From: Bacillus marasmi
Lineage (GTDB): Bacteria > Bacillota > Bacilli > Bacillales > Cytobacillaceae
Length of the DNA: 64,000 nucleotides
Direction: 5' to 3'
Assembly (NCBI RefSeq): GCF_902168435.1
Contig: NZ_LR656167.1
Location: forward strand, 248,001-312,000
Shown: positions 4,109 through 21,116 of the stretch, piece by piece
Layout of the letters: each line of letters starts with the position of its first letter
Numbering within the stretch: position 1 is the first letter of the stretch
Notes under the pieces: generated by a model
Seen by the model: only the letters and a program-made list of their open reading frames with translations
Databases searched by the model: none
Told to the model about the DNA's origin: nothing
Translations under genes and position numbers: made by a program

Positions 4109-4144
4109 AAATTATGAACTTTTACTGAAAGAGGGAACCGTGCC

Positions 4145-5179: not shown

Positions 5180-5239
5180 TATCAGCGATGAAGCAGTCAG
5201 GATTGCTCCCGGCTGTTTTTTGGTGTGAAATAATGAACC

Positions 5240-5253
5240 TGACAATATTGTCA
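5240..5253 (+). promoter_or_regulatory. candidate BceR-type operator of the transporter genes
   Basis: TGACAATATTGTCA is a perfect 14-base palindrome about 100 bases upstream of the transporter start. It fits the TNACA-N4-TGTNA pattern known for BceR-family binding sites upstream of bceAB-type genes. The pattern match is seen; binding is inferred. Confidence 0.6.
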
Positions 5254-5354
5254 CATTGTCTTGCCTGATTGTCATGTAAAACGTACGACAAGCGGAAAAT
5301 CCAACCGTAAAATAAAGCTATCATCGAGCAACAATTATGATTTGGAGGTACGTT

Positions 5355-6140
5355 ATGAATCAGTTGAATGTAGGAGAAACCGTTTTACAAGCACGAAATG
5401 TCCACAAAACATTTGGCACCAAAGGAAATACACAGCATGTATTAAAAGGAATAGATTTACGCGTCACCCGCAGTGAATTTGTCGGCATTATGGGCCCTTC
5501 CGGTTCAGGCAAGACGACATTGCTTAACATCTTAGCCACGATTGATCATGCTACGGACGGAACGGTTTTAATCGAAGACGCAGATATCTCCAAGCTGAGC
5601 AATGCCGAGCTTTCCGCCTTTCGGCGCAATAAGCTGGGATTCATCTTCCAGGATTACAATCTACTGGATACGTTGACAGTGAAGGAAAATATCCTGCTGC
5701 CCATCTCCCTTAGCAAAATAAGCAAGCGGAAGGCAGAAAGCGAGTTCACAGCCATCGCAGATATGCTGGACATTAAAGCACAGTCACACAAATATCCGCA
5801 TGAAATATCAGGAGGACAAAAACAACGGACAGCTGCTGGGCGCGCCTTGATACACCAGCCGTCGATCGTGTTTGCGGACGAACCAACCGGTGCACTGGAT
5901 TCAAAATCCGCTTCCTCGTTACTGGACGTGATGGAGAAGGTGAATCAGGAGCGAGGCGTCACCATTGTCATGGTGACCCATGATCCGGTAGCCTCAAGCT
6001 TCTGCAGCCGTGTTGTGTTTTTAAAAGACGGGAAGATTTATTCCGAGCTGTATCGCGGCGATAAATCAAGACATGCCTTCTTTAATGAGATTATGGACGT
6101 GCAATCTGTACTGGGGGGCGACCATGTTGACAGTTTTTGA
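5355..6140 (+). CDS. bceA-like: ABC transporter ATP-binding protein (BceA-like)
   Basis: An ATPase subunit of about 261 residues with Walker A GPSGSGKTT, signature SGGQKQR, Walker B VFADEPTGALDS and the H-loop VTHD. The ATG at 5355 is chosen because GGAGG lies eight bases upstream. The 3' end overlaps the permease gene by 17 bases, indicating translational coupling. It belongs to the MacB/LolD-like class used by bacitracin and lantibiotic resistance transporters. The substrate peptide cannot be predicted. Confidence 0.93.
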   Translation: MNQLNVGETVLQARNVHKTFGTKGNTQHVLKGIDLRVTRSEFVGIMGPSGSGKTTLLNILATIDHATDGTVLIEDADISKLSNAELSAFRRNKLGFIFQDYNLLDTLTVKENILLPISLSKISKRKAESEFTAIADMLDIKAQSHKYPHEISGGQKQRTAAGRALIHQPSIVFADEPTGALDSKSASSLLDVMEKVNQERGVTIVMVTHDPVASSFCSRVVFLKDGKIYSELYRGDKSRHAFFNEIMDVQSVLGGDHVDSF

Positions 6141-8046
6141 ATTAGTGCTTCGCAGCATGCGAAAAAATGTGAAGCATTATTATTTGTACTTCTTTGCACT
6201 GATCTTTAGTATGAGCCTGTATTTTGTCTTCACATCCCTACAGCACGATCAGGCTGTTCAGAATATGACAAATACGAGCGTTGTCTTCTTTCAAATTGCG
6301 GGAGTCATGCTGATTGTGATCGTTGGGATCTTTACCGTCTCGGCCAACGGCATTTTCCTGCGTCGGCGCAGTCGAGAAATCGGACTATATCAGCTGATTG
6401 GTCTTTCCAAAGGCTGGGTAGCCCGATATCTAATAATCGAGAATATACTGCTTGGCTTAGGTGCATTACTTGCTGCGATCATTTGCGGCGCGTTGGTTTC
6501 AAGGCTGTTCGTCCTGATTTTGCTGAATCTGCTCGGCTTAGAAGGGATTGTCGGCATCAGCTTTTCCGTAACAGCGGCTTTTAAAACAGCGATGGTCTAT
6601 CTTCTCATCATCGTCATCACTTCCATTCAGATGATGCTGACGGTTTATCGCAGCACCCTTCTGAATCTGTTTCAAGCTGACAAGCGGCATGACCTCACTA
6701 TGCCGCCCAAAGCGGTGGCATCTGCTATTTTCGCCTTGCTCGGTCTCGCGCTGATTGGATTTGGCTATGAATTATCGGGTCATGTCGATAAAGAGTTATT
6801 CCCCAACGCACTATTGATGCTCGGATCTATCGTTACAGGGACTTACTTATTGTTTCACGTTACGATCAGATGGTGCTTTTACTGGTTCCGCAAACGTAAA
6901 GATGGACACCTAGGCTTAACAAACAGTCTGTCGATAGCTCCGCTGTTGCACCATACGAAAGCAAATGCCAACTCACTTACTTTGATTACGTTGTTATCAG
7001 CGATGACGATCACGATGATTTCCATGGCTTACTCCTTCTATTACTCGGTAGAGCAAGAGACTCGCCGCGATCTCCCATATGATTTTATGTTTGAAAACGA
7101 GCAGCAGGAGGCGCTGTCGTTCCAGAGCGAGCTGGAGAATGAAGGCATCGATGTGAAACACCACGACGTTGAAGCGGTTCTGACGAAGGGCGTCATCCTT
7201 GATCCCAATGACGAATCCTATAAGTTTAAAGAAAGTTTGTTATGGCTTCCAGCCGAACAGCTTAAACGAACAGGCGCAGACCTCAACATGCCGCCAGATG
7301 GTGAAGCCATTTTGTACGATGCGGGGGCCTCACTTGCCGGGGACTTAGATGAGCAGTCGAAGCGATATCCAACCGAAATACAGTTGGAGCAGCATGGACA
7401 GATCGTTATGTATACATTGAGCACATTAATGGAAAGGAACATCATGAATTTAAATGCTCCCGGCAGTCAGCTGCTAGTGTCAGAAGCGACGATGGACAAA
7501 ATCGCAGAACAAATGGCCGGTAGACCTGATTATAAAAAAATTCGCTTTGATACGTATCAAGTTCCGGACAAGGAAGAGCTTGCGATAGCTTCATCTATAT
7601 ACACAAAATACGACAATGACGAACAATTAAAGTATGATTTCTATGCGCAGTACAAAAAAGTGCTGGAACTGACAGGCTTGCTCATTTTCATCGCAGCTTT
7701 CCTTGGACTTGTCTTTTTGATCTCAACCGGAAGCATCTTGTACTTCAAGCAAATGACTGAAGCCGAGCAGGAAAAGCAAAGCTTTAAGACGTTGCGACAG
7801 CTCGGATTTGACGTGAATATGATCATGAAAGGCATTATACGAAAGCAGGCAATCGTGTTCCTTCTCCCTCTATCGATCGGTATGCTTCATTCGATCTTTG
7901 CTATCAAAGCTGCTTCATTTATGATCCGGTCGGACCCCACGTTTCCAGCATCTATCGCCATGGCGATTTACACGGTTATCTATTTTGTATTCGCTCTGTT
8001 TACCATAGGTTACTACCGCAACATTGTAAAAAATGCTATGTCATAA
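6124..8046 (+). CDS. bceB-like: ABC transporter permease (BceB-like)
   Basis: About 640 residues. The ATG at 6124 (MLTVFELVLRSMRKN) follows GGGGGG and is preferred over the longer frame from 6073. It shows the BceB layout: FtsX-like groups of helices, ten predicted membrane segments, and one large extracellular domain of about 200 residues between helices 7 and 8 (roughly residues 310-510). That domain binds the peptide or its lipid complex in known members. It functions with the ATPase and signals to the kinase. Last gene of the GC-rich block. Confidence 0.92.
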   Translation: MLTVFELVLRSMRKNVKHYYLYFFALIFSMSLYFVFTSLQHDQAVQNMTNTSVVFFQIAGVMLIVIVGIFTVSANGIFLRRRSREIGLYQLIGLSKGWVARYLIIENILLGLGALLAAIICGALVSRLFVLILLNLLGLEGIVGISFSVTAAFKTAMVYLLIIVITSIQMMLTVYRSTLLNLFQADKRHDLTMPPKAVASAIFALLGLALIGFGYELSGHVDKELFPNALLMLGSIVTGTYLLFHVTIRWCFYWFRKRKDGHLGLTNSLSIAPLLHHTKANANSLTLITLLSAMTITMISMAYSFYYSVEQETRRDLPYDFMFENEQQEALSFQSELENEGIDVKHHDVEAVLTKGVILDPNDESYKFKESLLWLPAEQLKRTGADLNMPPDGEAILYDAGASLAGDLDEQSKRYPTEIQLEQHGQIVMYTLSTLMERNIMNLNAPGSQLLVSEATMDKIAEQMAGRPDYKKIRFDTYQVPDKEELAIASSIYTKYDNDEQLKYDFYAQYKKVLELTGLLIFIAAFLGLVFLISTGSILYFKQMTEAEQEKQSFKTLRQLGFDVNMIMKGIIRKQAIVFLLPLSIGMLHSIFAIKAASFMIRSDPTFPASIAMAIYTVIYFVFALFTIGYYRNIVKNAMS

Positions 8047-8072
8047 CCATCACTTAAAGGGAGATAAGCTAT

Positions 8073-8111
8073 ATGGGGTACCACCAACATTTCGGACATT
8101 TTGTACGCTAA
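8073..8111 (+). CDS. possible 12-residue open frame after the permease
   Basis: ATG GGG TAC … TAA encodes MGYHQHFGHFVR and is preceded by AAAGGGAG at good spacing. It lies between the permease stop and the terminator. It may be only the truncated start of a lost gene; there is no evidence of function. Confidence 0.2.
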   Translation: MGYHQHFGHFVR

Positions 8112-8127
8112 GCATATTTCCAACCTA

Positions 8128-8170
8128 AAAAAATCGATTCCTTATCGTACAGGGAATCGATTTTTTTTTA
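8128..8170 (+). terminator. terminator closing the Bce block
   Basis: AAATCGATTCC … GGGAATCGATTT with a run of eight or more T. It marks the right end of the GC-rich module. Confidence 0.9.
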
Positions 8171-8601
8171 CAATCGCACTCGTTGAATAGCGCTGTGTAC
8201 CAAATCCATTTGGTGGAGGCATTAGTTCCGATGGTGATATCTCCATTTGTTTGTACTAGTAGTACCTGTGTATCTAATGTATAGTTTTCTAATTATCTTA
8301 TTTTAAGATTCAATAACCTCTACAATAAGCAACTATATAGCCTGTTATAGAATGCTAATAAATAGCAGAAAGAGCTTATTCAATCATCGGGCGCTTATCT
8401 ATAGCAAGGATAAGCGTCCTTTTACGTTTTGGGTCAGATTCTTGAATAACACAAAAAAAGCGAACTGGATATTTTTGTTATAATATAGAGTATATTGTAA
8501 ATGTTTGCACCTAAACTGTCAGGTTTGTTAAAGAAAATATAATGAAAGAAAATGCTAGTTAATAAAGGGCAACAAAATACGATAAAGAGAGGAGGGGTAA
8601 G
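8171..8601. other. gene-free stretch
   Basis: Holds CGGGCGC element copy 4 (8374-8450) and a TATAATATA-like promoter stretch near 8480. I see no supported gene. Confidence 0.5.
8374..8450 (+). repeat. CGGGCGC element, copy 4
   Basis: TTATTCAATCATCGGGCGC head, stem TTATC/GATAA with GCGTCC, then TTTTACGTTTTGGG and the inverted end TTGAATAAC matching the head. A complete subtype A copy. Confidence 0.85.
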
Positions 8602-9255
8602 ATGATAAGAAATAAAGTGGCACTCATTAGTGCAGTTATAATTTTAGGGGTTTGTATGTATTTATATTTCCCCTTTCCTAACAATGTAATGTTAGATGCT
8701 CGTTCTACATTCATGTCGTTTCCAATCCATAATCAAGATGGATATATTTTGCTTGGACTAATAGGTTCTGTTATGTTTATCATCGCCATGATTTTACTTG
8801 GCATTGGCATGAAGAAATATCAAATTCGAACAATAGTAATAGCTGTAATAGTATATGCAATCTTACCCAATGTCTTAATTACGATGTATCAGGAAACGTT
8901 AGCAAATGGAATTAAAGCAATTTCATATGATGGAAATGGTAATTGCAATTTTGAGAATGTGAGCAAAAACCAATTGAATGGGGAATGCGATTTTATATTG
9001 CATAATCGTAGCAATAAAGCAGTGACCTTTGAATTAGAATTTTTAGATTCTATTTTCTTAGAAGATCAATTACGAATGGAATCTCTTATGAATACAGCAG
9101 GTCCTTATATTATTACAATAGGTGCCAATCAAAAAAAGTCAATTCATTTGAGGGAATTACTAAATTTATCAAATGTTCAAGATCATATAGAAAGTGGTGG
9201 GTCGTCTAATGTTCATTTTAAGTTAATTGATGGGGAGACCACACGGACTTTATAG
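8602..9255 (+). CDS. membrane protein with extracytoplasmic C-terminal domain, unknown function
   Basis: 217 residues: three membrane segments (about 6-24, 50-68, 76-96) followed by a soluble domain of about 120 residues that looks beta-rich, with an Ig-like feel (…CDFILHNRSNKAVTFELEF…). A very strong GAGAGGAGGGG ribosome binding site supports the start. It stands alone between two repeat copies. I do not recognise the family. Confidence 0.75.
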   Translation: MIRNKVALISAVIILGVCMYLYFPFPNNVMLDARSTFMSFPIHNQDGYILLGLIGSVMFIIAMILLGIGMKKYQIRTIVIAVIVYAILPNVLITMYQETLANGIKAISYDGNGNCNFENVSKNQLNGECDFILHNRSNKAVTFELEFLDSIFLEDQLRMESLMNTAGPYIITIGANQKKSIHLRELLNLSNVQDHIESGGSSNVHFKLIDGETTRTL

Positions 9256-9574
9256 TAGATATTATCCATTATTTTGAAAAAGGAGTTTCATTTAAATAGG
9301 AGATTAAATAATGTTCAATCTCCTAGATAGATTAAAAGGGATTTACTGAAAATATCTTTTTTAAAAAAGCAGCAATCGGGCGCATTTCTCAGGGAATGTG
9401 CTTATTTTTAATTAGCAAAATGTTATTGCTTATTAATAAATATGGAATATGAACACAAAAAACAATAAATTTGTGGTGGTAATGAGAAGGAAGTAAGTAT
9501 TGGAAGGAATTATTACAGTTGTATCTTGAATGTGTTAATGTAATTATAAGGAATGATACAAGGAGTGATAAACA
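9256..9574. other. gene-free stretch
   Basis: Contains CGGGCGC copy 5 and the upstream region of the first retropepsin cassette; AAGGAGTG is the ribosome binding site at its right end. Nothing else supported. Confidence 0.4.
9369..9410 (+). repeat. CGGGCGC element, copy 5
   Basis: CAGCAATCGGGCGC head, stem CATTTC/GAATG, then TGCTTATTTTTA. Short copy without a right inverted end. Confidence 0.7.
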
Positions 9575-9823
9575 ATGAAATGGGAAGAAGTTCGTGATCA
9601 ATACCCGAATCAATATGTAAAACTTGCTATCCTTGATTTTCACCTAGAAGGTGATAAAAAGATTGTGACGGACGTTGCATTAATTGATTTAATTGAAGAT
9701 TCTAAATTAGCTACAAAAGAATTACTAAAATCAAAAGGTAATACCATTGTTTATCATACAGGTTCAGAAAAGATTGTTATTGAAGTAAGAAATCCTACTG
9801 GATTAAGAGGTATACGATTATGA
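9575..9823 (+). CDS. MKWEEV-type small protein, first gene of retropepsin cassette 1
   Basis: 82 residues starting MKWEEVRDQYPNQYVKL, soluble, acidic, with no membrane segment. AAGGAGTGATAAAC precedes the ATG. Its stop overlaps the start of the aspartic protease gene in the four bases ATGA, so the two are translationally coupled. A paralogue with the same MKWEEV opening, the P-(N/D)-Q motif and a shared DVA lies at 14439, also coupled to a protease gene. The function is not known to me; partner, substrate or inhibitor of the protease are the options. Confidence 0.8.
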   Translation: MKWEEVRDQYPNQYVKLAILDFHLEGDKKIVTDVALIDLIEDSKLATKELLKSKGNTIVYHTGSEKIVIEVRNPTGLRGIRL

Positions 9824-10209
9824 AGTTAGAATTAGTGAATCGTTTACTCGAAGTTGAAATGACGATTTCATATAGAGGGAAAACAAAAGTAATAGATAAG
9901 CTTGTTATTGATACAGGTGCAGCACATACTTTAATCTCATCCGACATCGTAGAGGAATTGGGTATCTACTTTGAAAATGGAGACCCTCTAGTTAGTGCAT
10001 ACGGAATTGGCGGTGAAGAATATTCATTTCGAAAACTAGTTAATTTTATTAAGCTAGGTTCACACGAAATATCCGATATTAAGCTTGACTTTGGAAATTT
10101 AGATGATTGGGGTATTAACGGTCTCATAGGACTAGATATCTTAATGAATGGTAAATTTATTATTGATTTAGAGAAATTCGAATTAGTTAAAAATACAAAT
10201 TCTGTTTAA
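9820..10209 (+). CDS. retropepsin-like aspartic protease, cassette 1
   Basis: 129 residues with the features of a single-domain (clan AA) aspartic protease: catalytic DTGAAHTLIS at about residues 31-40, glycine-rich flap GIGGEEYSF around residue 63, and the closing hydrophobic-hydrophobic-Gly motif GLIGLDIL around residue 105. Like viral retropepsins it should act as a homodimer, since only one catalytic Asp is present per chain. There is no signal peptide or membrane segment, so it is cytoplasmic. It is coupled by a 4-base overlap to the small protein upstream. The substrate is unknown. Confidence 0.85.
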   Translation: MKLELVNRLLEVEMTISYRGKTKVIDKLVIDTGAAHTLISSDIVEELGIYFENGDPLVSAYGIGGEEYSFRKLVNFIKLGSHEISDIKLDFGNLDDWGINGLIGLDILMNGKFIIDLEKFELVKNTNSV

Positions 10210-10278
10210 AAAAAGAAATATCTATACTGCTTTGCATAAGCATATAAGCCACTTAAATTACCATTTTTAATAATCCTC

Positions 10279-10341
10279 AATCCTCCGCAATCGGGCGCGA
10301 AAATTGCGTAATATGAGTCTTTTAAAAGCAGCCCTTTTTTG
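10279..10341 (+). repeat. CGGGCGC element, copy 6 (subtype B)
   Basis: CCGCAATCGGGCGCGAAAA head, then GTCTTTTAAAAGCAGCCCTTTTTT, a degenerate version of the subtype B terminator-like stem. It lies about 70 bases after the protease stop. Confidence 0.75.
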
Positions 10342-10459
10342 TTCTCTAATAAGTTAAAGGAGAATGAACACCCTAGTACAAATTTAACTTCTATTGCTAG
10401 TACAATAAAAAATATCATTTAGGCAACCCTATTCATATTAAAATATGGGAGTGGTTGCG

Positions 10460-10924
10460 GTGAATAAAGTACTGCTAATGTTAGTCATGGTATTGTTCTT
10501 AACTGCTGGTAATACTTCGGCTGCTAAAGCTACAGCAGTGGGAGGAGAGAAATATGAAGTGAAGGACCAAGCTACAAAGATGTTTATATATGACACAATG
10601 CGGGTATGGATGCGTCATAGCTTAGACAGTTATTATCATAATAAATATCATGCAGACTCAATAAGTTGGGGAGAGCTAAAACCAGAAGGAATTCATGTTT
10701 GGATAAAGCAGTTTGAGCCTACTGAAAACGACGGCACGTATACCCATCTTATAAGAATCTCTTTGCAATATGATAAATTAATCATCAATGACAAGAAAGA
10801 GATAAAAACAAAGGATACATTTACTTATGCAGTTAACGCAAATTTACTTTCACTTTGTCCTGAATCAGGTAAATCTGAAAAGGAATTTAAATTAATCAAT
10901 TCTTATCATATAGAACGGCCATAG
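10460..10924 (+). CDS. secreted protein of unknown function
   Basis: About 154 residues with a clear cleavable signal peptide: basic start, hydrophobic core LLMLVMVLFLTAG, cleavage around NTSAA-KA. The GTG at 10460 follows GGGAGTGG; an in-frame ATG at 10445 would add five residues. The mature part is charged and rich in Tyr and His with no recognised domain. It is a single gene between CGGGCGC copy 6 and the MntA/HepT locus. Confidence 0.7.
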   Translation: MNKVLLMLVMVLFLTAGNTSAAKATAVGGEKYEVKDQATKMFIYDTMRVWMRHSLDSYYHNKYHADSISWGELKPEGIHVWIKQFEPTENDGTYTHLIRISLQYDKLIINDKKEIKTKDTFTYAVNANLLSLCPESGKSEKEFKLINSYHIERP

Positions 10925-11071
10925 CGGGTTGTGCTTTTTTTGTTAATGTAATAGAAGAATAAATCAATCAATTACAGTAATCGTAAAGGAGAATCTGATT
11001 AAACGGCGAATAAAGTAATTCATAAATGCTATAATGAGAATAACTAATATTTAGGTATGGCGGTGATTCAA

Positions 11072-11377
11072 ATGTTATCGCAAACAGAAATTCTTGAGGT
11101 ATTATCAAATAACTTAAAAACATGGAAAGAAAAATACGGTGTTAAGCGTATTGCTCTCTTCGGATCTTACTCTCGGGGAGAACAAAAGGATACTAGTGAC
11201 ATTGACTTGTTAGTAGAGTTTGTAGAAAACTCAATGACATTTGATAATTATATGGAACTAAAGTTCGATCTAGAAGATCTTTTTCAAACGCCTGTAGATT
11301 TAGTTATAATCGAAGATATTAAGCCTGCCTTAAAGCAAAGTATCCTAAGGAGTGCCAAGTATGCTGAGGGAGCCTAG
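11072..11377 (+). CDS. mntA-like: MntA-type nucleotidyltransferase antitoxin
   Basis: 101 residues from the ATG at 11072 (GGCGGTGA at 11059-11066 favours it over 11057). Minimal nucleotidyltransferase fold with the motif GSYSRGEQKDTSDIDLLV, i.e. GSxxRG…DxD, and a later Asp in PVDLVII. In MntA/HepT pairs this enzyme adds AMP residues to the Tyr of the HEPN toxin motif and silences it. Its stop lies inside the start of the HEPN gene, but that gene is frameshifted here, so this antitoxin appears to be left without a working partner. Confidence 0.9.
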   Translation: MLSQTEILEVLSNNLKTWKEKYGVKRIALFGSYSRGEQKDTSDIDLLVEFVENSMTFDNYMELKFDLEDLFQTPVDLVIIEDIKPALKQSILRSAKYAEGA

Positions 11378-11713
11378 AGTCTTTTTAGAAGATATTTTTG
11401 AAGCAGCTGTAAAAATCGAAAAATTTACGAAAAATATTCATTTGAAGATTTTGTTGACAATGACTTAGTTTCAGACGCTGTAATAAAAAAAATTTTAGTT
11501 ATAGGTGAAGCAACAAAAAACATTTCTGCTGAAATTAGAGAAAAAAAGCCCCATGTTGAATGGAGAAAGATGGCCGGCATGAGAGATATGATGATTCATG
11601 GTTATTTTTCCATTAATTATCGAATTGTTTGGGATGTAGTGCAAAATAAGATTCCTACACTAAAGCAACAAGTCCAAGAGCTAATAACAGAAATCCACAA
11701 AGAGATGTCATAA
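11361..11713 (+). pseudogene. hepT-like: HepT-type HEPN toxin gene, frameshifted
   Basis: ATG at 11361, inside the end of the antitoxin gene, with GGAG upstream. The frame MLREPRVFLEDIFEAAVKIEKFTKN breaks near 11435, where one base seems missing before TATTCATTTG. The next frame continues YSFEDFVDNDLVSDAVIKK… to the stop at 11711-11713. The HEPN active motif RDMMIHGY (Rx4HxY) is intact in the second part. Length about 117 residues, normal for the family. A near-identical 3' fragment lies at 45579. Confidence 0.85.
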
Positions 11714-11737
11714 GATACGTCTTTGTGGATTTTTTAT
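11691..11737 (+). terminator. terminator overlapping the 3' end of the HepT pseudogene
   Basis: AATCCACAAAGA … TCTTTGTGGATT followed by TTTTAT. The left arm is inside the coding region. Confidence 0.8.
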
Positions 11738-12156
11738 TTGGCGATTTGGGAGCAAATTGGGAAAGTAATGTTGAAGTTTGTTATTTTTTAAAGGGCACTG
11801 TATTGTAAAAATCTCCTCACCGTTGTTTGAATTTTATTCAATGTGGCTTATTCCGCAAACGGGCGCATTCCTAGAAAAGAATAGCGCTCATTTTTCATTT
11901 TAGGGAGTAATTCTGCAATATGAATTGCCCCTTTTTCTTTTGTAGGGGGGGCAGGTAATCGAGTATGGATTTGTTCAAAAATTTTAGTTTTTCACTCAAA
12001 TTTCAAATTAGTCTATAAACTATTAACGGTATTAGCTATCATCTTTTAGTAGTAATGCTGATACTAGTCGAATATATTGCCCATTTTTTACAAAAAAATC
12101 GAACGAAATTTAGATTTCTTACCAATATGAAGTATAAAACAAAAGGGGGAATGATT
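11738..12156. other. gene-free stretch before the first sigma factor gene
   Basis: Holds CGGGCGC copy 7. The open frame from 12055 into the sigma gene lacks a ribosome binding site and is not taken as coding. The promoter of the sigma operon should lie between 11950 and 12140; I cannot assign it confidently. Confidence 0.4.
11843..11928 (+). repeat. CGGGCGC element, copy 7
   Basis: GGCTTATTCCGCAAACGGGCGC head, stem ATTC/GAAT closed by GCGCTC, TTTTTCATTTTAGGG tail and partial right inverted end (AATTCTGCAATA). Full-length subtype A. Confidence 0.85.
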
Positions 12157-12735
12157 TTGGGGGAGCCTAACGATATTAATCAACTTATTGAACATATTTT
12201 ATCTAGGAATAAGCAAGCCTTTGGTGATCTGTATGAAAAAACAATACATGACGTGTATACCACTATTCATTTTTTACTTGATGATAAAACTGATGTAGAT
12301 GATATCGTTCAAGAAACCTATTTTCAAGTTTATAAAAATCTTAACAAGTTTGATAAAAGGAGAGATTTTAAGCCTTGGATTACAGGAATTGCCATAAAAC
12401 AAATCCACAACTATCGTAGAAAAAGGTGGATGAGATTTAGAGTTTTAAAAAAAGTAGAAAGCTCAAGCCAATTGACTGTTATTGATCAAACTAATGAACT
12501 AAATGATAAAGTATCAAATCTACAATTATCAGAGCTTGTGAATGGTTTACCATACAAGCTTAGACAAGTGATAATACTCCGTTATTTAAATGAATATTCA
12601 CAAGAGGATATTGCTGGAATTTTAAACATACCAATCGGAACAGTAAAATCGAGAATTAATGCAGCATTAAAAAAGTTACGCCAAAAAGGTCACAATGGGA
12701 ATTATTTTATTGAGGAAGTGAGGAATCTGCAATGA
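12157..12735 (+). CDS. ECF-type RNA polymerase sigma factor (pair 1)
   Basis: About 192 residues. The TTG at 12157 is chosen because GGGGGA ends six bases before it; the ATG at 12151 would leave no spacing. Sigma2 region (DDIVQETYFQVYKNLNKFD) and sigma4 region (YSQEDIAGILNIPIGTVKSR) are clear. It overlaps the next gene by ATGA. ECF sigma factors are held by a membrane anti-sigma partner until a stress signal releases them; the downstream gene encodes such a protein. The signal is unknown. Confidence 0.92.
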   Translation: MGEPNDINQLIEHILSRNKQAFGDLYEKTIHDVYTTIHFLLDDKTDVDDIVQETYFQVYKNLNKFDKRRDFKPWITGIAIKQIHNYRRKRWMRFRVLKKVESSSQLTVIDQTNELNDKVSNLQLSELVNGLPYKLRQVIILRYLNEYSQEDIAGILNIPIGTVKSRINAALKKLRQKGHNGNYFIEEVRNLQ

Positions 12736-13787
12736 ATATTGAAAATCGGTTGAGAGACTCATTACGGGAGAAAAGTAAAGAATTCGCTCCTCCTCATGAA
12801 TTGAAACAACGAGTATTAAATAGAATTGCTTTAGCTGAAGGCAAGAGCAAATTTAAAAGACATTTAGCAGCTGGGATCATTGCGGTAGGCATATTAATTC
12901 CTACTAGCGGCTTTACATACCAAGCATATTTAGCCGATGAGTTATATGGATCATTAGAAAATATAATAGAACATTTTGAGACAGCGAAAACGGATAGTTA
13001 TATGTTATTAAATGCAAAACTTTTACAAGCCAAGGGAGAACTTAGTCAATCTGAATATGAAAAATTTAAACAAAATTTAAAAGTGATAACCATTTCTAAA
13101 ATAGAGTTTGGAAATCAATATGGCAATATTAATTATGATCAAATCCCACAAGAAAAAGTTTCAGAAATAAAAAAAGCATCTATGCTGTTACAACCGTACT
13201 TCGATAAATTAAACGGTCACGAATCTAGCAAAACAGTTTTATCGGCTGAAGAATATGAAAGATATATTGAAGCTTTAATGACAAATGAGAAAATCCTTGT
13301 AAAAAGTGAGATAAATCCAAGCAAAAGTTTCAGTAATGAGGATATTAAGCCTGAGTTGCTAGATGAATACCTAATTTCTAAAAGTATAATAGAGGATGTT
13401 GACAAAAAGGTGATGGAAGCAGGAAATGAGCATCTTGCCTATATGCCAAATTTTTCAATAAATAACAAAAAGGCGTTTATAGAATACGGCATGCCTACCT
13501 ACGATAACGAAAATGTTGATATAAAAGATGTTAATTTGATTAAGGCATACGCAGATGGATTAAAAGCAATTGAAGTCCAATCAAATACAAACTTGAAGGT
13601 TACTTTTGCTAAACAACCAGATTCAATAAAGATCCAACAATTAACCAAAGAAGGTAAAATTATTAGCACGAATTCTTTAGGAGAAATTACATTTCCAAAA
13701 GAAAGTGGACAGTATACAATTGTTGTTACAGGACAATGGGGTAAGCTTGAAAAGCCTTATATCATTGTTGCAAAGGTTTTAGAATGA
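12732..13787 (+). CDS. membrane-anchored anti-sigma factor (pair 1)
   Basis: 351 residues: an N-terminal cytoplasmic part of about 45 residues, a single membrane helix (about 46-66, LAAGIIAVGILIPTSGFTY) and a large extracytoplasmic domain of about 280 residues. From memory it resembles the DUF3600 class of Bacillus anti-sigma proteins; a profile search would settle that. Its start overlaps the sigma stop in ATGA, the usual coupling of a sigma/anti-sigma pair. It lacks the zinc HxxxCxxC motif. Confidence 0.85.
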   Translation: MNIENRLRDSLREKSKEFAPPHELKQRVLNRIALAEGKSKFKRHLAAGIIAVGILIPTSGFTYQAYLADELYGSLENIIEHFETAKTDSYMLLNAKLLQAKGELSQSEYEKFKQNLKVITISKIEFGNQYGNINYDQIPQEKVSEIKKASMLLQPYFDKLNGHESSKTVLSAEEYERYIEALMTNEKILVKSEINPSKSFSNEDIKPELLDEYLISKSIIEDVDKKVMEAGNEHLAYMPNFSINNKKAFIEYGMPTYDNENVDIKDVNLIKAYADGLKAIEVQSNTNLKVTFAKQPDSIKIQQLTKEGKIISTNSLGEITFPKESGQYTIVVTGQWGKLEKPYIIVAKVLE

Positions 13788-13856
13788 AGATATGTATCTA
13801 AACAAAATAGTATCGACAGTCAAAAGGTTTACATTAACTATAATTTTAATAATACT

Positions 13857-13910
13857 TCTTCAGCAATCGGGCGCTTATCTCTAAGTAAAGAGAAGTGTCC
13901 TTTTCTTGTT
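13857..13910 (+). repeat. CGGGCGC element, copy 8
   Basis: CAGCAATCGGGCGC, stem TTATCTCT/AGAGAAG, then TGTCCTTTTCTTG. Located about 70 bases after the anti-sigma stop. Confidence 0.75.
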
Positions 13911-14044
13911 TTTTCTATGTTTCTTGAAATTTAAAATGTTTTATATTTTCTGCGATTATTGATTATCCTACGTATGAAACAAACTCTCCTTGAACATAAT
14001 AGAATCTAGATTAATGGATTAATACAGTAGGAGAGTGATAGAAA

Positions 14045-14404
14045 ATGTTATTATCCGGTGTTTGGAAAAAATATCAACAAGATAAAAGTATAGAAGGCTA
14101 TTCACCACTAACATTAAAAACATATTGTTTTCAATATAATCTTCTTTTACGTTATTTCGGTGATATGGACATCAGCGAATTGACTACTGAGAAATTAAAA
14201 GAATATCTAGTACAGGAAGGCACTCACTTGAAGAGATCTAGTCTGGGTCATAGGGTTCGCTGCATTAAGTCAATTTTCAAATGGACACATGAGGAAGGAT
14301 ATATTCCAAGAAATCCAGCTGCCAAATTAAAAGAACCGAAATTGGGTAAAAGAATTCCAAAATTTCTATCAGAAATGGAGATAGAACATCTTAGGGAAGC
14401 ATGA
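14045..14404 (+). pseudogene. tyrosine recombinase, N-terminal fragment only
   Basis: 119 residues matching the SAM-like core-binding domain of Xer/phage-type integrases (SPLTLKTYCFQYNLLLRYF … RCIKSIFKWTHEEGYIPRNPA … KLGKRIPKFLSEMEIEHL). The frame ends exactly where the catalytic domain (R…HxxR…Y) should begin, so the enzyme cannot cut DNA. GAGAGTG precedes the ATG. It lies 35 bases before retropepsin cassette 2 and may mark how that cassette arrived (inference). Confidence 0.85.
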
Positions 14405-14438
14405 TAATATAAACATAAAGTAAGTTGGAGGTGATTGA

Positions 14439-14696
14439 ATGAAATGGGAGGAAGTATGCCAAGCGTTTCCTGACCAATGGGTGTTGATTGAGGCTCTCCA
14501 AGCTTATACGAATGATGAAAGTGAGCGTATACTGGAAGACGTTGCTCCTTTGAAAAAATTTTCTAATTCTCCAGAAGCAATGCGAGCTTATCAAGAACTT
14601 CATCGTGAAAATCCTTCCCGAGAGCTATATGTACTTCACACCAGCCGAACAAAGCCTAATATCTTTGAGAAAAAGTGGGTAGGTGTGAGAAGGTGA
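14439..14696 (+). CDS. MKWEEV-type small protein, first gene of retropepsin cassette 2
   Basis: 85 residues opening MKWEEVCQAFPDQWVLIEAL, preceded by GGAGGTGATTGA. It is a paralogue of the protein at 9575 in its first 20 residues, in the LEDVA/VTDVA segment and in its length, but otherwise quite diverged, so the two cassettes are old relatives rather than a fresh duplication. The stop TGA overlaps the GTG start of the protease gene in GTGA, the same 4-base coupling as in cassette 1. Function unknown. Confidence 0.82.
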   Translation: MKWEEVCQAFPDQWVLIEALQAYTNDESERILEDVAPLKKFSNSPEAMRAYQELHRENPSRELYVLHTSRTKPNIFEKKWVGVRR

Positions 14697-15079
14697 AGAA
14701 GTTATTTATAGATGAGGGATTATTATTAACAGAAATGGAAGTAACTTATAAACGGAAAACATTATTATTAAAGCGGGTTCTAGTAGACACTGGATCCGGC
14801 AGCACGATAATAAAAACTGATTTAGCTGAAATAATTGGTATTGTTGCTGAAGAAAACGATATGATTTATCGTATCAGCGGTGTTGGGGGATCAGAGTTTG
14901 TGTTCTCTAAGACGATTAATTCTATAAAAATCGGTGAGCAAAAATCAGATAACTTTACAGTCGAAATTGGTGCAATGGACTATGGGTTTGATTTAGACGG
15001 CATTATCGGATTGGATTTACTACAGCAAATGAAAGCAATTATTAACTTAGAAAAGCTTATATTAGAGTGTAATAGTTAG
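14693..15079 (+). CDS. retropepsin-like aspartic protease, cassette 2
   Basis: About 128 residues from the GTG at 14693 (an in-frame ATG at 14675 lies inside the upstream gene and is less likely). Catalytic VDTGSGSTII around residue 30, flap ISGVGGSEFVF around residue 63, and GIIGLDLL near residue 108 give the complete single-domain aspartic protease pattern. No signal peptide or membrane helix. Same architecture and length as the protease at 9820. It ends at a terminator whose T tract carries a MITE insertion. Confidence 0.85.
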   Translation: MKKLFIDEGLLLTEMEVTYKRKTLLLKRVLVDTGSGSTIIKTDLAEIIGIVAEENDMIYRISGVGGSEFVFSKTINSIKIGEQKSDNFTVEIGAMDYGFDLDGIIGLDLLQQMKAIINLEKLILECNS

Positions 15080-15080
15080 A

Positions 15081-15120
15081 AGCAATTATGGCAAATTACC
15101 ATAGTTGCTTTTTATTTTTT
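15081..15120 (+). terminator. terminator of retropepsin cassette 2
   Basis: AGCAATTATGG … CCATAGTTGCT stem (one G-U pair) followed by a T-rich tract. The MITE at 15121 is inserted at the end of this tract. Confidence 0.8.
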
Positions 15121-15484
15121 GGCTGTGTTAAACTTGGATGTTGATTTTCGCTCCAGGCACATAGGCTGTTTACGGACTCCGAGCGGACACAGAATACCTT
15201 ATTTCGTAGAAATAGGTTAGATTCAGGGTCAAAGCGGACACACAGACCCTTATTTCGGCAAAAATCATATGAAATCGCGGTTTCGTAGCCAGATAAGGTA
15301 CTCTGTGTCCGCTAAAAAACAAAGTTTGTTGTTTTTAGTGAAAATAAGCTCTCTGGTGTCCTTAACATAACGAAGGGTTGGCACAATTTAAGGATTAGCT
15401 GTTCGCAAAGTATCTCAACACGCTACGATATTGATTGCCGCTCCAATCACCGTGGTAAAAATCAACATTGTGCTTTAACACAGC
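15121..15484. mobile_element. MITE with terminal inverted repeats and 9-base target duplication
   Basis: Left end GGCTGTGTTAAA…TGTTGATTTT and right end AAAATCAACA…TTTAACACAGC are imperfect inverted repeats of about 27 bases. The 364-base element is flanked on both sides by the 9-base direct repeat TTATTTTTT (15112-15120 and 15485-15493). The interior has no coding frame but carries its own inverted pairs (GCGGACACAGAATACCTTAT / ATAAGGTACTCTGTGTCCGC). A 9-base duplication fits mobilisation by an 8-9-base-duplicating IS family; no such transposase is in the window. Confidence 0.82.
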
Positions 15485-15500
15485 TTATTTTTTAATGATG

Positions 15501-15578
15501 CATACTCAGCAAACGGGTGCGTATCCATAGCAAGGATAAGCGCCCATTTTACGTTTTGGGGCCAGATTGTGGAACAAC
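15501..15578 (+). repeat. CGGGCGC element, copy 9 (full subtype A)
   Basis: CTCAGCAAACGGGTGC head, GTATCC/GGATAAGCGCCC stem, TTTTACGTTTTGGGG, then GCCAGATTGTGGAACAA as right end. Head shows GGGTGC instead of GGGCGC. Confidence 0.85.
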
Positions 15579-15657
15579 GCTTTTAAAGAAGGTTGGTGAG
15601 GGTGAATAGATTGTGTATATTTCCACTTAATCTCCCTCAGTTGTGTGTAGAAAGACA

Positions 15658-15700
15658 AAAAAATAAAGCTTAGGACATACGATGATGTCCTAAGCTCTTA
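15658..15700 (-). terminator. terminator of the DinB-type gene
   Basis: AGCTTAGGACATCA … TATGTCCTAAGCT on the minus strand followed by TTTATTTTTTTTG. Confidence 0.85.
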
Positions 15701-15707
15701 CATAAAG

Positions 15708-16193
15708 TTATAATGTTTTAACTTGCTCAATTTTTAATCCGAAAATTTGAGGTGGTTCAATTTTGTTCAACTGTAAATATGTAGAGATTTGCCCGCGATG
15801 ATGGATTTCATGTTCTGGGATTGCCATAAGTATTCTCCACGCACTAACTTCATGACCATGAAGTGTTAAAACCTTTTTTGTCAACACATTGTTTCCAACT
15901 ATTAATAGACCCTCTGTTAGTTTAATCTGGCATTCCTCTAAATAATTTGAAATATCCTCAAGTGAATGCCCCTTACCAGTATCATGTCCTGTGTATGACC
16001 ACGAACCTTGTTCAAACAGGCCAAGAAACATCAATCGAGATGATGCGATATGTCGTAATAAATCACCTGTAGAAAATTTATCTTCAGAAGGCTTCCAATC
16101 TAAGAGTTCATTAGGTATTAATTTTACATATTGCATCGTTCGTTTATGAATGCCATCTAAATATTTTACATATTCCTTTATATCATGAATCAT
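15708..16193 (-). CDS. DinB/YfiT-family four-helix metalloprotein
   Basis: About 161 residues from the ATG at 16193 (GGAGAG upstream favours it over 16208). DinB-superfamily fold: His in LLRHIAS (about residue 46) and the pair in EHEIHHRGQI (about residues 127-131) supply the metal-binding triad. Members include thiol-transferases such as those using bacillithiol, but many have no known substrate. It is one of few minus-strand genes here and has its own terminator. Substrate not predictable. Confidence 0.88.
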   Translation of the reverse strand: MIHDIKEYVKYLDGIHKRTMQYVKLIPNELLDWKPSEDKFSTGDLLRHIASSRLMFLGLFEQGSWSYTGHDTGKGHSLEDISNYLEECQIKLTEGLLIVGNNVLTKKVLTLHGHEVSAWRILMAIPEHEIHHRGQISTYLQLNKIEPPQIFGLKIEQVKTL

Positions 16194-16350
16194 GTTACCA
16201 CTCTCCAACTTTTCTGACTTTTATTATTTACATTCTTGATTCTTTGTTAATAAACCTTTAAATTGTAGAACTAAATATACAAAAAAGGTTGATGATTAAG
16301 CTATAGGTACGATTACTTGAACAGCAGGGCTACCAAAGCCAGCTGGTTGT

Positions 16351-16380
16351 TTATTCCACAATCGGGCGATTGTAGAATAA
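16351..16380 (+). repeat. CGGGCGC element, copy 10, collapsed to its two ends
   Basis: TTATTCCACAATCG directly joined through GG to CGATTGTAGAATAA: a 30-base near-perfect palindrome (one mismatch) that equals the two ends of a full element with the centre deleted. It defines the terminal inverted repeat as TTATTCCACAAT. Confidence 0.75.
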
Positions 16381-16395
16381 TCTTAAGTAGCTTTC

Positions 16396-16440
16396 TTCTT
16401 AAACTAACGGGTGCGATTCCAAAGAGATTTGAAGCTGTAA
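16396..16440 (+). repeat. degenerate CGGGCGC head next to copy 10
   Basis: CTTAAACTAACGGGTGCGATTCC resembles a decayed element head. No matching stem or right end is evident. Confidence 0.4.
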
Positions 16441-16536
16441 TGGTGGAAGCTATTTTTGAGGAGACTAATATTTCAATTGATTTAGATGGTATAATTTGGA
16501 TAGTGTGGAGTTCTAAACTAACAAGGAGTTAATTTA

Positions 16537-16947
16537 ATGAAAAAAATTTTAGCTGTAATGGTGGTTATCGTAGTAGGAATTGTAGGATTTTCGGGTTATA
16601 TTCTAGCAAAAGAAGGATTGGAAATTGAGGTAAAAAATCAAACAAACAAAGAGATATCAGGATTATATTTTACCTATGATAAAATTAAATCGAATATCAA
16701 GATACCTTCCATTGCATCGGGTAAAAAATATACACTCAATATTAATCCGAATGAGAATTCCAATGATGACTTTAATGAAGCTGCATTAAAACTAGAGTAT
16801 AGAGATAACAAAGGGCAATTACATACTGAGCATGTTATTGGATATTTTGAAAAAGGTTATACAGGGGAAGCAGTAATTACAATAAAATCGGAAGACAAAA
16901 ATGGGAAACTATACATAGACGTAACCGATCAAACATCATTGTATTAA
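16537..16947 (+). CDS. membrane-anchored or exported protein, unknown function
   Basis: 136 residues with an N-terminal hydrophobic segment (MKKILAVMVVIVVGIVGFSG) that acts as a signal anchor or uncleaved signal. The rest is a soluble domain of about 110 residues of alternating beta character (EVKNQTNKEISGLYFTYDK…) outside the membrane. AAGGAG precedes the ATG. No family recognised. It stands alone between repeat copies. Confidence 0.7.
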   Translation: MKKILAVMVVIVVGIVGFSGYILAKEGLEIEVKNQTNKEISGLYFTYDKIKSNIKIPSIASGKKYTLNINPNENSNDDFNEAALKLEYRDNKGQLHTEHVIGYFEKGYTGEAVITIKSEDKNGKLYIDVTDQTSLY

Positions 16948-16966
16948 TAGTTCACTTTAAAATATC

Positions 16967-17030
16967 AATATTCATCAATCGGGCGCGAAAATTAAAAAAG
17001 GGGCTGTTTAAAAACAGTCCTTTTTTTGCT
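16967..17030 (+). repeat. CGGGCGC element, copy 11 (subtype B)
   Basis: ATCAATCGGGCGCGAAAATT head, then GGGGCTGTTTAAAAACAGTCCTTTTTTT: the head is followed by an independent terminator-like stem GGGCTGTTT/AAACAGTCC. Confidence 0.85.
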
Positions 17031-17186
17031 ATTAATGAATATAGGCAAGATAGTTGAACATGAGCTTTAACAAATCGTCCATAACGTGGGCGATTATTTT
17101 ATTTTAAAAAATTTATAGAATTTAAGCCAAATTAGAATTTGGTTTGTCTAATAATTGTAAGGCAAAAAAAGAAAGGGTGAATTCCA

Positions 17187-17708
17187 ATCATTAGATTAGT
17201 AAAGAAAGCTCAAAGGGGAAATGATAAAGCCTTTTTAAAGCTTTTTCAGCAATATGAAGCGGATATTTATCGTATGGCTTATGTTTATGTAAAAAATAAA
17301 GGTGATGCTTTAGATGTTGTTCAAGAGGTAGCTTACCTATCATTTAAAAATATTGATACCCTAAAAAAACCAGAATATTTCAAAACATGGTTAATGAAAA
17401 TAACGATGAATTGTGCAACGAATGTAATAAGGAAAAACAAAAAAATTGTTCATCTAAAACCGGAATATGAGAAATTTATCGGAATAGAGAATGAAGATAT
17501 TCCTCTTTCTGTATCATTACAAGACTTAATAGAAACATTGGAAGAGGATGAAAAAAGTGTTGTTTTACTAAAGTATTATTATAATCATACATTTAAAGAA
17601 ATATCAGAGGTATTGGAAATACCACTTGGGACGGCTAAATCAATCCTTTATCGTGCCTTAGATAAGCTACGCAAACAATTTAAGGAGGGTGATTATTGTG
17701 GACAATAA
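17187..17708 (+). CDS. ECF sigma factor (pair 2), apparent ATC start
   Basis: About 173 residues. The coding pattern reaches upstream of the first ATG (17274): the frame reads IRLVKKAQRGNDKAFLKLFQQYEADIYRMAYVYV, the normal start of sigma region 2, with an in-frame stop at 17178-17180. GAAAGGGTG at 17171-17179 points to ATC at 17187 (or ATT at 17190) as the start. Sigma2 (DALDVVQEVAYLSF) and sigma4 (TFKEISEVLEIPLGTAKSIL) are intact. Translation may be weak. The anti-sigma gene overlaps its 3' end by 11 bases. Confidence 0.8.
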   Translation: MIRLVKKAQRGNDKAFLKLFQQYEADIYRMAYVYVKNKGDALDVVQEVAYLSFKNIDTLKKPEYFKTWLMKITMNCATNVIRKNKKIVHLKPEYEKFIGIENEDIPLSVSLQDLIETLEEDEKSVVLLKYYYNHTFKEISEVLEIPLGTAKSILYRALDKLRKQFKEGDYCGQ

Positions 17709-18711
17709 AATAGATCAAGAGATACATAAAATTGAAATACCAAAAGAATTACACGAAAGGTCAAAATTAGGTGTAAAAAAGGCAAAAGAAGAGCAACAGA
17801 AAAAGAAGTTCATCAATCCATTCGTAGCAGCCATCATTTTAGGGTTCACTGCAATTACGGTTACTTTTGCCTTTCCAACTATTGCATCACAAATTCCATT
17901 TATGGATCATGTCGTTCGATACTTTATTGATGAAGAGAAGGACCTCGAAAACTTTGAAACTTTTTCGACTGATGTTAGTCTTGCACAGACAAGTAATGGT
18001 ACGACGGTTATGATAGACAAAGCGGTTTATGACGGGACAAATATTACGATTTCATACGCACTCGAAACAGAACAAGAAATAAAAAGTGAAATGGAAATTC
18101 GTGCAAGGAATTGGTTTGATGTTGTTGGTGCAAGTGGTATGGGGGGGACTGAAAAAATCACAAAGATTAGTAACAATCGTTATGTAGGTTTGGCATCCTT
18201 CACTCCACATTTCAGTGAATATCCTGACACTGTTGAAATTACTTGGACCCCTGAAGCCTTTAGTAGTTTATCAAATGATTTTGAAATAGAAGGTGATTGG
18301 TCATTTGGTTTTTCGCTAAAACGCTTAGAAGGTGACATAGAACTATTAAATAAAACTGTACAAAATAAGGATATTACTTTCATGCTTCAAACAATTGAGT
18401 TCACTGATGTTTCCACTGTTATTAGCTATGAACAAGAGGTTACTGAAGAATTGTTTAAAATGTGGGAAAGTGTCACACCTGTTTTCCATATAAAAGATGA
18501 CTTAGGTAATGTGTATATGGATGGTACGGGTGGAGGTGGCATGTCACCTGATAATGGAAGAACATTTAAAGGAACAAGCGATTTCGGTAAAATTCAAGAT
18601 GGGGCTAGTAAACTTATCATTCTACCTATACAAATCGCAAGTCTAAATAATGGAAAAGGTCATACAAAAATTGAACTAGAGCCTATTATCATCGAATTAA
18701 AAAAAAAATAA
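17698..18711 (+). CDS. membrane anti-sigma factor, DUF4179 type (pair 2)
   Basis: About 337 residues from the GTG at 17698, which has AAGGAGGGTG upstream. Cytoplasmic N-terminus of about 42 residues, one membrane helix (FVAAIILGFTAITVTFAF), and a long extracytoplasmic domain of about 270 residues rich in beta strands. It fits the DUF4179-containing anti-sigma proteins of Bacillus ECF pairs. The overlap with the sigma gene supports functional pairing. Confidence 0.85.
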   Translation: MDNKIDQEIHKIEIPKELHERSKLGVKKAKEEQQKKKFINPFVAAIILGFTAITVTFAFPTIASQIPFMDHVVRYFIDEEKDLENFETFSTDVSLAQTSNGTTVMIDKAVYDGTNITISYALETEQEIKSEMEIRARNWFDVVGASGMGGTEKITKISNNRYVGLASFTPHFSEYPDTVEITWTPEAFSSLSNDFEIEGDWSFGFSLKRLEGDIELLNKTVQNKDITFMLQTIEFTDVSTVISYEQEVTEELFKMWESVTPVFHIKDDLGNVYMDGTGGGGMSPDNGRTFKGTSDFGKIQDGASKLIILPIQIASLNNGKGHTKIELEPIIIELKKK

Positions 18712-18767
18712 TGGATTAGTTTAAAAATTGCGGGTTAATGCACTTAAAGTAAATGGTATAAATAACG

Positions 18768-18842
18768 ATATTTCAGAATCGGGCGCGTATTCATAGCAAG
18801 ATAAGCGCCCCTTTTACGTTTTGGGGCCATATTGTGGAGCAC
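18768..18842 (+). repeat. CGGGCGC element, copy 12 (full subtype A)
   Basis: TTCAGAATCGGGCGC, stem GTATTC-ATAGCAA-GATAAGCGCCC, CTTTTACGTTTTGGGG, then GCCATATTGTGGAGCA. Confidence 0.85.
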
Positions 18843-18976
18843 AGCCTTTAAAATTTTAACATATAAATTATCAATAATTTTGCTGTCATGTTGGCAGCAA
18901 TTTTTTTGGTCAATAGCACAACTTTTATTTAACTTAAACGTCTAAGTTTTGAACAATGAGAAAAGGAGGGGCGAAA

Positions 18977-19504
18977 TTGACGAAACGCAGAAAAGAAGAA
19001 ATTGCAGATTGGTACGACAAACATAGTAAGTCCGTTTTAAGCTTTATATTATTGATAGTTAAGGACTATCAACAAGCAGAAGATTTAACTCACGATACTT
19101 TTGTAAAAGCGTACTTATATTTTGATTCTTTTAAACATTTTTCTAGTGAAAAAACATGGCTATTTAGTATCGCTCATAATGTAACAGTTGATTTTTTGCG
19201 GAAACGTAAACCTAGCTTGTTCTTTAAAGAAATATTTCTTATGAAAAAGGATGATAATCCATTTCCAGAAGAGGTTATTCGTATAAAAGAAGATTCATAT
19301 GAACTTTATAAAGCGTTAGGGGAGCTCAAAGATACATATCGAAAGGTAATTATATTAAGAAAAATTAAGGACTTTTCTATTGAGGACACGGCTCAGATAT
19401 TAAATTGGTCTGAAAGCAAAGTTAAATCAACACTGTTTAGAGCAATTCCAGCATTGAAAAGACAATTAATAAAGGAGGGATATTTAGATGAGAAAACAAT
19501 ATGA
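18977..19504 (+). CDS. ECF sigma factor (pair 3)
   Basis: About 175 residues. TTG at 18977 is preferred because AAAGGAGGGG sits just upstream; the ATG at 18956 would place that site inside the gene. Sigma2 (QQAEDLTHDTFVKAYLYFDSF, then EKTWLFSIAHNVTVDFLRKRK) and sigma4 (FSIEDTAQILNWSESKVKSTLFRA) are clear, with the SigM/YlaC-like style of wording. Its last 17 bases overlap the anti-sigma gene. Confidence 0.92.
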   Translation: MTKRRKEEIADWYDKHSKSVLSFILLIVKDYQQAEDLTHDTFVKAYLYFDSFKHFSSEKTWLFSIAHNVTVDFLRKRKPSLFFKEIFLMKKDDNPFPEEVIRIKEDSYELYKALGELKDTYRKVIILRKIKDFSIEDTAQILNWSESKVKSTLFRAIPALKRQLIKEGYLDEKTI

Positions 19505-20927: not shown

Positions 20928-21116
20928 ATGTTGAAGTTCTTGGTTTTTGTTGGAATCATAACAATACCTATTTGGGGAGTACTTTTTTGTTTAAACTTAA
21001 TCTCTATAATTGAAAAGATTAAATACGAAGAAAGTTACGGAAAAAATAAATTTTGGTTAACACTATCATTTGTTATAATCATATCAATTCTAGCTATTAC
21101 TAATACGCAACCATAA
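20928..21116 (+). CDS. small membrane protein
   Basis: 62 residues with two hydrophobic helices (about 3-25 and 43-58) around a charged loop (EKIKYEESYGKNK). AAAAGGGG precedes the ATG. No recognised family. Confidence 0.55.
   Translation: MLKFLVFVGIITIPIWGVLFCLNLISIIEKIKYEESYGKNKFWLTLSFVIIISILAITNTQP

Follow-up and report, generated by a model that had tools for sequence, protein, structure and literature searches.

Small-protein and retropepsin-like protease gene pairs of Bacillus marasmi as putative cassettes of a chromosomal integron-like array

Introduction

A 64,000-nt stretch of Bacillus marasmi DNA (contig NZ_LR656167.1, positions 248,001 to 312,000, forward strand; hereafter the window) carries twice a two-gene unit in which the gene for a small protein is followed by the gene for a retropepsin-like aspartic protease. 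The locus raises the question of what this pair is and by what means it came to stand twice in one region. Judging from comparisons of sequence, it is very probable that the small gene and the protease gene are inherited as one unit, that each of the two pairs belongs to a cassette of a chromosomal integron-like array, and that the cassettes move as units bounded by a short repeated site.

The original prediction for this locus held that no function had been described for the pair. That remains correct for its mechanism, but the pair is already catalogued in PADLOC as the candidate defence system PDC-M08: the small proteins match model PDC-M08A and the proteases match PDC-M08B, and the two genes are adjacent and in the same order as in the catalogue entry. 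PDC names denote unpublished candidates of the PADLOC authors, according to the portions of PMC11811056 consulted. PDC-M08 differs from the window pairs in being a catalogue entry for which no published account was found; the term itself was not found in the open-access literature searched, a body of work that excludes subscription papers and holds few preprints and in which no description of the arrays, the repeat or PDC-M08 was found. The pair is thus a new member of a catalogued candidate defence system, and its carriage on site-bounded cassettes is an addition. The protease defence candidate is now placed on a unit with defined borders, which makes it testable at the bench.

Results

The pairs lie between same-strand sites

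Cassettes, for the most part 0.5-2 kb long, follow one another over ~57 kb, most of which falls inside the window (Table 1). Between them stand same-strand sites in which inverted arms enclose the spacer GGGCGC. The 11-mer CAATCGGGCGC occurs eight times in the window, all on one strand, where none is expected, and 17 times in the genome, with 11 copies in one 44-kb stretch on one strand. A weight matrix for the site, trained on three genomes only (G101, G031 and G039; 173 sites), identified 26 sites of at least 11 bits in the window, 25 of them on the plus strand, and found none of at least 8 bits in the reversed window and none of at least 10 bits in 15 reversed control stretches. In 136 kb of the contig (C21), 31 of the 34 loose site matches fall within positions 239,230-296,133 (30 on the plus strand), and the three beyond the array are single and loose. 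The spacer that begins cassette 1 is also the start of a terminator-like hairpin (9378-9403), and the site closing cassette 2 is followed by an inverted second half at 15564 (11.1 bits, other strand).

The site is widespread among relatives. Exact copies of CAATCGGGCGC number 599 in the 151 family genomes, as opposed to 39 for the reversed pattern; at least one exact copy is present in 115 of the 151 (33 for the reversed control), six or more are present in 24, and the richest genome has 122 copies in one-strand clusters. Sites within a cluster nearly all point in one direction. The consensus of 204 copies, tTCaaCAATC-GGGCGC-wTTCTtgAaCAA, has a core of a 6-bp spacer and inverted arms, as in dif modules. 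Conservation of the 11-mer is partly a matter of choice since it served as the search key, but the outer arms were not keyed and are also conserved (TTC, 89-94%; two A residues of the right arm, 90-92%). In 44 of 284 sites the left half recurs downstream in inverted form, 38 of these 60-64 nt on, as opposed to 2/284 in windows 500 nt away and 0/284 upstream, so a minority of sites (44/284) have an attC-like plan. The site 16-mer also gave 13 single matches in viral contigs.

Many homologous blocks end at the sites

Homologous blocks between and within arrays point to movement of the cassettes. Among 158 blocks of at least 250 bp (shorter high-scoring segment pairs were dropped), 46 end at a site in both copies, for which 300 random shifts of the sites gave a mean of 0.09 and a maximum of 2. 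Four blocks have both ends at sites. When blocks of at least 95% identity in different arrays of one genome are considered, 16 of 27 end at sites (null maximum, 1). Three of the four junctions examined are clean, with unrelated flanks, and the blocks (3114, 703 and 653 bp at 100, 99.6 and 98.6% identity) start just after, and end with, a sequence terminating in ...CAATCGGGCGC; in the fourth block (4875 bp) the copies diverge just within the left end. For cassette 2, homology with three distinct genomes begins at one and the same base, 13859, beside CAATCGGGCGC. In Bacillus sp. DNRA2 (genome G019, locus L034), a member of the same genus, the block with pair 2 stands before the block with the extracytoplasmic function (ECF) sigma genes, in the reverse of the order in the window.

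It could be argued that the repeated sites are nothing more than terminators or dispersed repeats, between which homologous recombination exchanges the blocks, given that many sites open a terminator-like hairpin and lie 3' of genes, and that most of the shared blocks do not end at sites. We consider this very unlikely. The repeated stretch is short, its copies form one-strand arrays, the clean junctions fall at the spacer between unrelated flanks, and the block-end statistics are far from the null.

A recombinase clade is tied to the sites

Which enzyme might act at the sites? A truncated gene for a XerA-like tyrosine recombinase ends 34 bp upstream of pair 2, and relatives of it stand before the pair at five other distinct loci (six with the window), being intact in L036 and interrupted or shortened in L034, L037, L058 and L059. 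Relatives that are at least 80% identical to the intact L036 protein (P0005, 280 amino acids) were found at 13 distinct loci in 11 genomes, and at all 13 a site lies 170-176 nt upstream of the gene; 11 of these sites score at least 25 bits, and two are degenerate but in register. By contrast, none of 12 relatives at 62-71% identity has such a site upstream. Matches under 100 amino acids or starting past query residue 30, and second loci of the same place, were dropped from this count. Site number is also higher in genomes with a member of the clade (19 among the matches listed, fragments of at least 79% identity included) than in the other 132 (median 7 versus 2, p 2e-8), although the genomes do not count as independent samples. 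G101 has an intact copy of the recombinase, located after the final exact site in a cluster of ~110 kb, with looser sites beyond it, and downstream of other copies there is an acetyltransferase gene or unrelated genes. The XerA-like recombinase would cut and join cassettes at the GGGCGC spacer.

A further possibility is that host XerC/XerD recombine the sites, as in dif modules, and that the XerA-like gene is a passenger. The 6-bp spacer and inverted arms do resemble Xer core sites, and arrays occur in genomes with no clade member among the matches listed. We nevertheless regard this as unlikely, as the fixed position of the upstream site in the clade, its absence from the sister clade and the higher number of sites in clade genomes argue for a dedicated enzyme, and the sites in a cluster are nearly all one-directional.

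At 10 of 12 loci the sister clade (62-67% identity; L099-L106, L117 and L134) has, 93-101 nt upstream, a candidate core site of its own with a CCTGCC-like spacer. The motif was derived from those same loci and is therefore a lead only, but a different candidate core site in the sister clade suggests a family of such systems. The idea of a recombinase for the window pair was prompted by gene order on an Alicyclobacillus plasmid, on which a tyrosine recombinase gene of another kind, a small gene and a protease gene stand in a row.

The small gene and the protease gene form a conserved unit

The two pairs of the window are homologous units with all four open reading frames intact on inspection, in keeping with the predicted shared design. 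The proteases are 37% identical (E 2e-26) and the small proteins 30% identical (E 5e-8). Both proteases pass the Pfam model Asp_protease_2 (PF13650; cut-off 24.3 bits, scores in Table 1), and they carry the motifs DTGAA, GIGGE and LIGLDIL (protease 1) and DTGSG, GVGGS and IIGLDLL (protease 2). The predicted structure of protease 2 has a retropepsin fold (predicted local distance difference test score, 93.5) and agrees with the identity proposed for these enzymes. Compared with other retropepsin-like clan AA proteases, such as the Rickettsia retropepsin, Ddi1 and RimB, the window proteases differ in being usually paired with a small protein and in falling short of the TIGR02281 and TIGR03698 cut-offs. 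For the small proteins, no Pfam or NCBIfam family scores above cut-off, and in a set of 18 small proteins no Pfam family reached better than E 0.015; their model is confident for residues 1-70 and has a tail predicted to be disordered. The small protein was also considered as a partner of DUF5678 (PF18929), a comparison that gave 0 of 101 genomes, and likewise 0 for the controls, and was uninformative. The genome contains a third copy of the pair at C19:285808-286421, in which stops interrupt the protease gene.

The pairing recurs throughout the class. Counts for 398 Bacilli genomes refer to the matches listed, for which no more than 10 to 14 candidates were scored in each genome. There were 129 matches to the small-protein profile, spread over 74 genomes, and 123 to the protease profile, spread over 71; in 63 genomes both profiles were matched. 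A protease match lies downstream on the same strand within 450 nt of 103 of the 129 small-protein matches (within 40 nt for 97), and 110 of the 123 protease matches have a small-protein match upstream, a recurrence that makes chance pairing untenable and is in line with the expectation of a constant gene order; homologues of the two proteins do not mostly occur apart. Of the 13 unpaired protease matches, nine are partial. Protease 1 has matches in 37 of the 151 family genomes, protease 2 was found at 23 loci of named records, the genera ranging from Bacillus to Oceanobacillus and Lysinibacillus, and in most of the protease 1 and 2 loci examined the small gene is directly upstream. Pairwise distances of the small proteins and proteases are correlated (r 0.97 for 24 pairs; permutation maximum, 0.41). 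The ratio of nonsynonymous to synonymous substitutions is 0.04-0.17 in 13 of 14 comparisons (the remaining one had no usable dS, and two others were saturated, with dS above 2). Catalytic conservation is equally strong, as a script read D-T/S-G in 30 of 31 distinct proteases of at least 110 amino acids (29 DTG, 1 DSG) and the 31st (L007) has DTG ahead of the stretch read by the script; a truncated copy (L053) reads DNG, and proteases under 110 amino acids were excluded from the motif count.

Both window pairs overlap by 4 nt, as first described, with ATGA at 9820-9823 for pair 1 and GTGA at 14693-14696 for pair 2. The latter uses the conserved GTG start of protease 2, six codons downstream of the start at 14675 in the mechanical list of open reading frames. 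As a general rule, however, the 4-nt overlap fails: in 36 distinct small proteins the overlap is 4 nt in 16, 1 nt in nine and 22 or 25 nt in nine, with a gap in two, and the 22/25-nt and gap groups hinge on the start picked by the script, which scored window pair 2 as 22. The proposal that selection has kept the coupling is upheld for the unit and its constant order. One might suppose that the small protein is a translation-coupling leader without a function of its own, and the short overlap with the protease start would fit. This is extremely improbable, given the substitution ratio of 0.09-0.17 for the small protein alone, its confident model over residues 1-70, and the occurrence of small-gene copies without a listed protease.

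Several copies among relatives are broken, and up to seven small-protein matches per genome are listed. No single neighbour is kept around the pair, but some pairs share a context among close relatives. Carriage on plasmids or phages was rejected as an explanation, since protease 2 had 0 plasmid matches and small protein 2 matched two plasmid records, one of them the Alicyclobacillus plasmid, and 0 phage records.

Discussion

Integrons share with this array the arrangement of small cassettes on one strand with sites between them, shared blocks and acetyltransferase cargo, although recombination at the sites is inferred here. Integron cargo does include acetyltransferases, as named in the part of a review used here (PMC8618304), and in G101 the GNAT family PF00583 is matched by 10 of the 88 cassette proteins and glyoxalase by four. 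The two inverted outer arms, mostly ~60 nt apart, are shared with integrons in 44 of the 284 sites. The array differs in its GGGCGC spacer, in a recombinase gene that is co-directional with the sites, and in the enzyme itself: P0005 scores 99.1 bits against the integron-integrase model TIGR02249 (cut-off 265; best stretch, residues 204-267) and 224 bits against the XerA-type model NF040815 (cut-off 220). The array appears, from its organisation, to work like an integron, yet by the integrase test it is not one. Integrons are described as very rare in Firmicutes, for which IntegronFinder 2.0 lists a single complete integron and some clusters of attC, few in number, in the sections of PMC9024848 cited. 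The pdif/dif modules of Acinetobacter plasmids, as far as the consulted text of PMC9455709 describes them, are likewise mobile modules between Xer-type sites, and toxin-antitoxin modules are common among them; the present array is set apart by description, as it is chromosomal, its sites have the same direction and a recombinase clade is tied to the site.

Bacillaceae probably possess a distinct integron-like system with a XerA-type recombinase and GGGCGC sites, in which the PDC-M08 pair is a recurrent passenger and maybe the keeper of the array. If that is true, a separate platform for cassette shuffling in Bacillaceae would explain gene turnover there, the integron plan would have arisen with another recombinase, and the system would be a source of cloning tools.

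Several observations weigh against the cassette reading and the role proposed below for the pair. With respect to movement, 112 of the 158 blocks have no end that coincides with a site in both copies, and the blocks are not independent. With respect to the enzyme, four genomes with at least 10 sites have no clade member among the matches listed, the title of NF040815 is 'site-specific tyrosine recombinase/integron integrase', and the genome of B. marasmi shows only the truncated copy among the matches listed, so the window array may be frozen. With respect to the pair, a same-strand site lies no farther than 2.5 kb away at only 14 of 57 places (many of these places are on short loci, on which farther sites would be missed), and among 60 class-wide loci a recombinase is near the pair in one genome only, the Alicyclobacillus place with its two loci. 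Furthermore, 26 of the 129 small genes have no listed protease (19 of these are near full length), the search with the small-protein model found no relative, and few of the 88 cassette proteins of G101 match defence models. Lastly, ECF-sigma relatives are denser near pairs: the sequence within 6 kb of pairs has 8 in 452 kb (window and second loci of the same place left out; L029, L034, L046, L060, L070 and L072), whereas the control stretches, drawn from other regions and genomes and not matched for genome, have 4 in 906 kb (a hand-calculated binomial gives about 0.02). That density is a weak sign of a link between the pair and ECF-sigma genes.

What might the pair do? The likeliest of the roles considered, which we offer tentatively, is that of a small conditional effector that serves defence or maintenance of the array. 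The folded small protein would bind the homodimeric retropepsin and restrain or direct it, with the predicted disordered tail perhaps forming the contact, and phage infection or loss of the cassette would release the protease to act. By analogy, the role would be that of toxin-antitoxin cassettes in integrons, either in defence or in array maintenance.

An alternative role for the pair is that of a regulator or signal processor comparable to SpoIIGA or RimB, with the small protein as substrate or adaptor, perhaps tied to ECF-sigma factors and with no part in defence or addiction. There is a precedent in RimB, a bacterial retropepsin with a defined partner, RimK (PMC11957791, in the passages drawn upon). 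The shared context of some pairs among close relatives, the density of ECF-sigma genes near pairs in comparison with the unmatched control, and three Lysinibacillus loci in which the protease is present and the small gene undetectable would also suit a regulator. The distribution of the pair speaks for something else: it is patchy (37/151 family genomes), with several broken copies, multiple copies per genome among the matches listed and no fixed neighbour, all of which is unlike a housekeeping regulator. We judge a regulatory role to be somewhat unlikely.

The neighbours in the window bear on the same point. Gene order does not support a functional link of the pairs to the ECF-sigma and MntA genes, at which the original prediction hinted: sites lie between these genes and the pairs, and the order of pair 2 and the ECF-sigma genes is swapped in L034. 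The density of ECF-sigma relatives near pairs nevertheless makes a link to the ECF-sigma genes conceivable. The MntA/HepT locus reported between the cassettes is there in part: the MntA gene (11057-11377) is present, but its hepT partner (11377-11770) is split between two reading frames, and the locus is thus broken. A 139-bp repeat with 96% identity lies at 11530-11668, inside the broken hepT region, and at 45576-45713.

Other features of the window

Table 1. Positions in the window of the gene pairs, cassettes, sites and recombinase remnant.
Feature	Positions	Strand	Details
Array part in window	56..48138	+	25 same-strand sites; array start ~8.8 kb before window
Site opening cassette 1	9364..9396	+	Spacer 9378-9383; 19.1 bits
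Cassette 1 (915 bp, counted from GGGCGC up to the following spacer), pair 1 alone	9378..10292	+	Flanking sites 19.1 and 30.8 bits
Small protein 1 (P0001), PDC-M08A	9575..9823	+	82 amino acids, MKWEEV...; PADLOC PDLC04400 E 6.8e-27
Retropepsin-like protease 1 (P0002), PDC-M08B	9820..10209	+	129 amino acids; Pfam PF13650 41.1 bits; PADLOC best E 8.8e-55
Site closing cassette 1	10279..10311	+	Spacer 10293-10298; 30.8 bits
ECF-sigma cassette	11861..13868	+	Genes 12055-12735 and 12732-13787; 94% identical block in L034, 3022-5071
Site opening cassette 2	13855..13887	+	Spacer 13869-13874; 33.4 bits
Cassette 2: broken recombinase, pair 2 and ~374-bp repeat insert (15120-15493)	13869..15514	+	Site model and block comparison
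Truncated XerA-like tyrosine recombinase	14045..14404	+	119 amino acids versus 280 intact; 87% identity to P0005 residues 1-120
Small protein 2 (P0003), PDC-M08A	14439..14696	+	85 amino acids; PADLOC E 1.9e-36
Retropepsin-like protease 2 (P0004), PDC-M08B	14693..15079	+	128 amino acids; Pfam PF13650 41.5 bits; PADLOC best E 1.8e-47
Site closing cassette 2	15501..15533	+	Spacer GGGTGC 15515-15520; 21.8 bits

The site array that organises these features was absent from the original prediction. The repeat insert of cassette 2 (~260-370 bp) has a diverged copy at 37064-37309, and short T-rich repeats stand on both of its sides, as for a small transposable element. Elsewhere in the array, a gene for a Fic-domain protein (2178-2906) lies between two sites and matches the SoFic and PDC-S04 defence models. 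A transporter region (MFS-like at 22126) is duplicated, with copies at 21482-23058 and 31684-33281, 10.2 kb apart, that are 69-88% identical over pieces. Just past the last array site, at 49944-50166, is the only Rfam match in the window, the Bacillus small RNA ncr1575.

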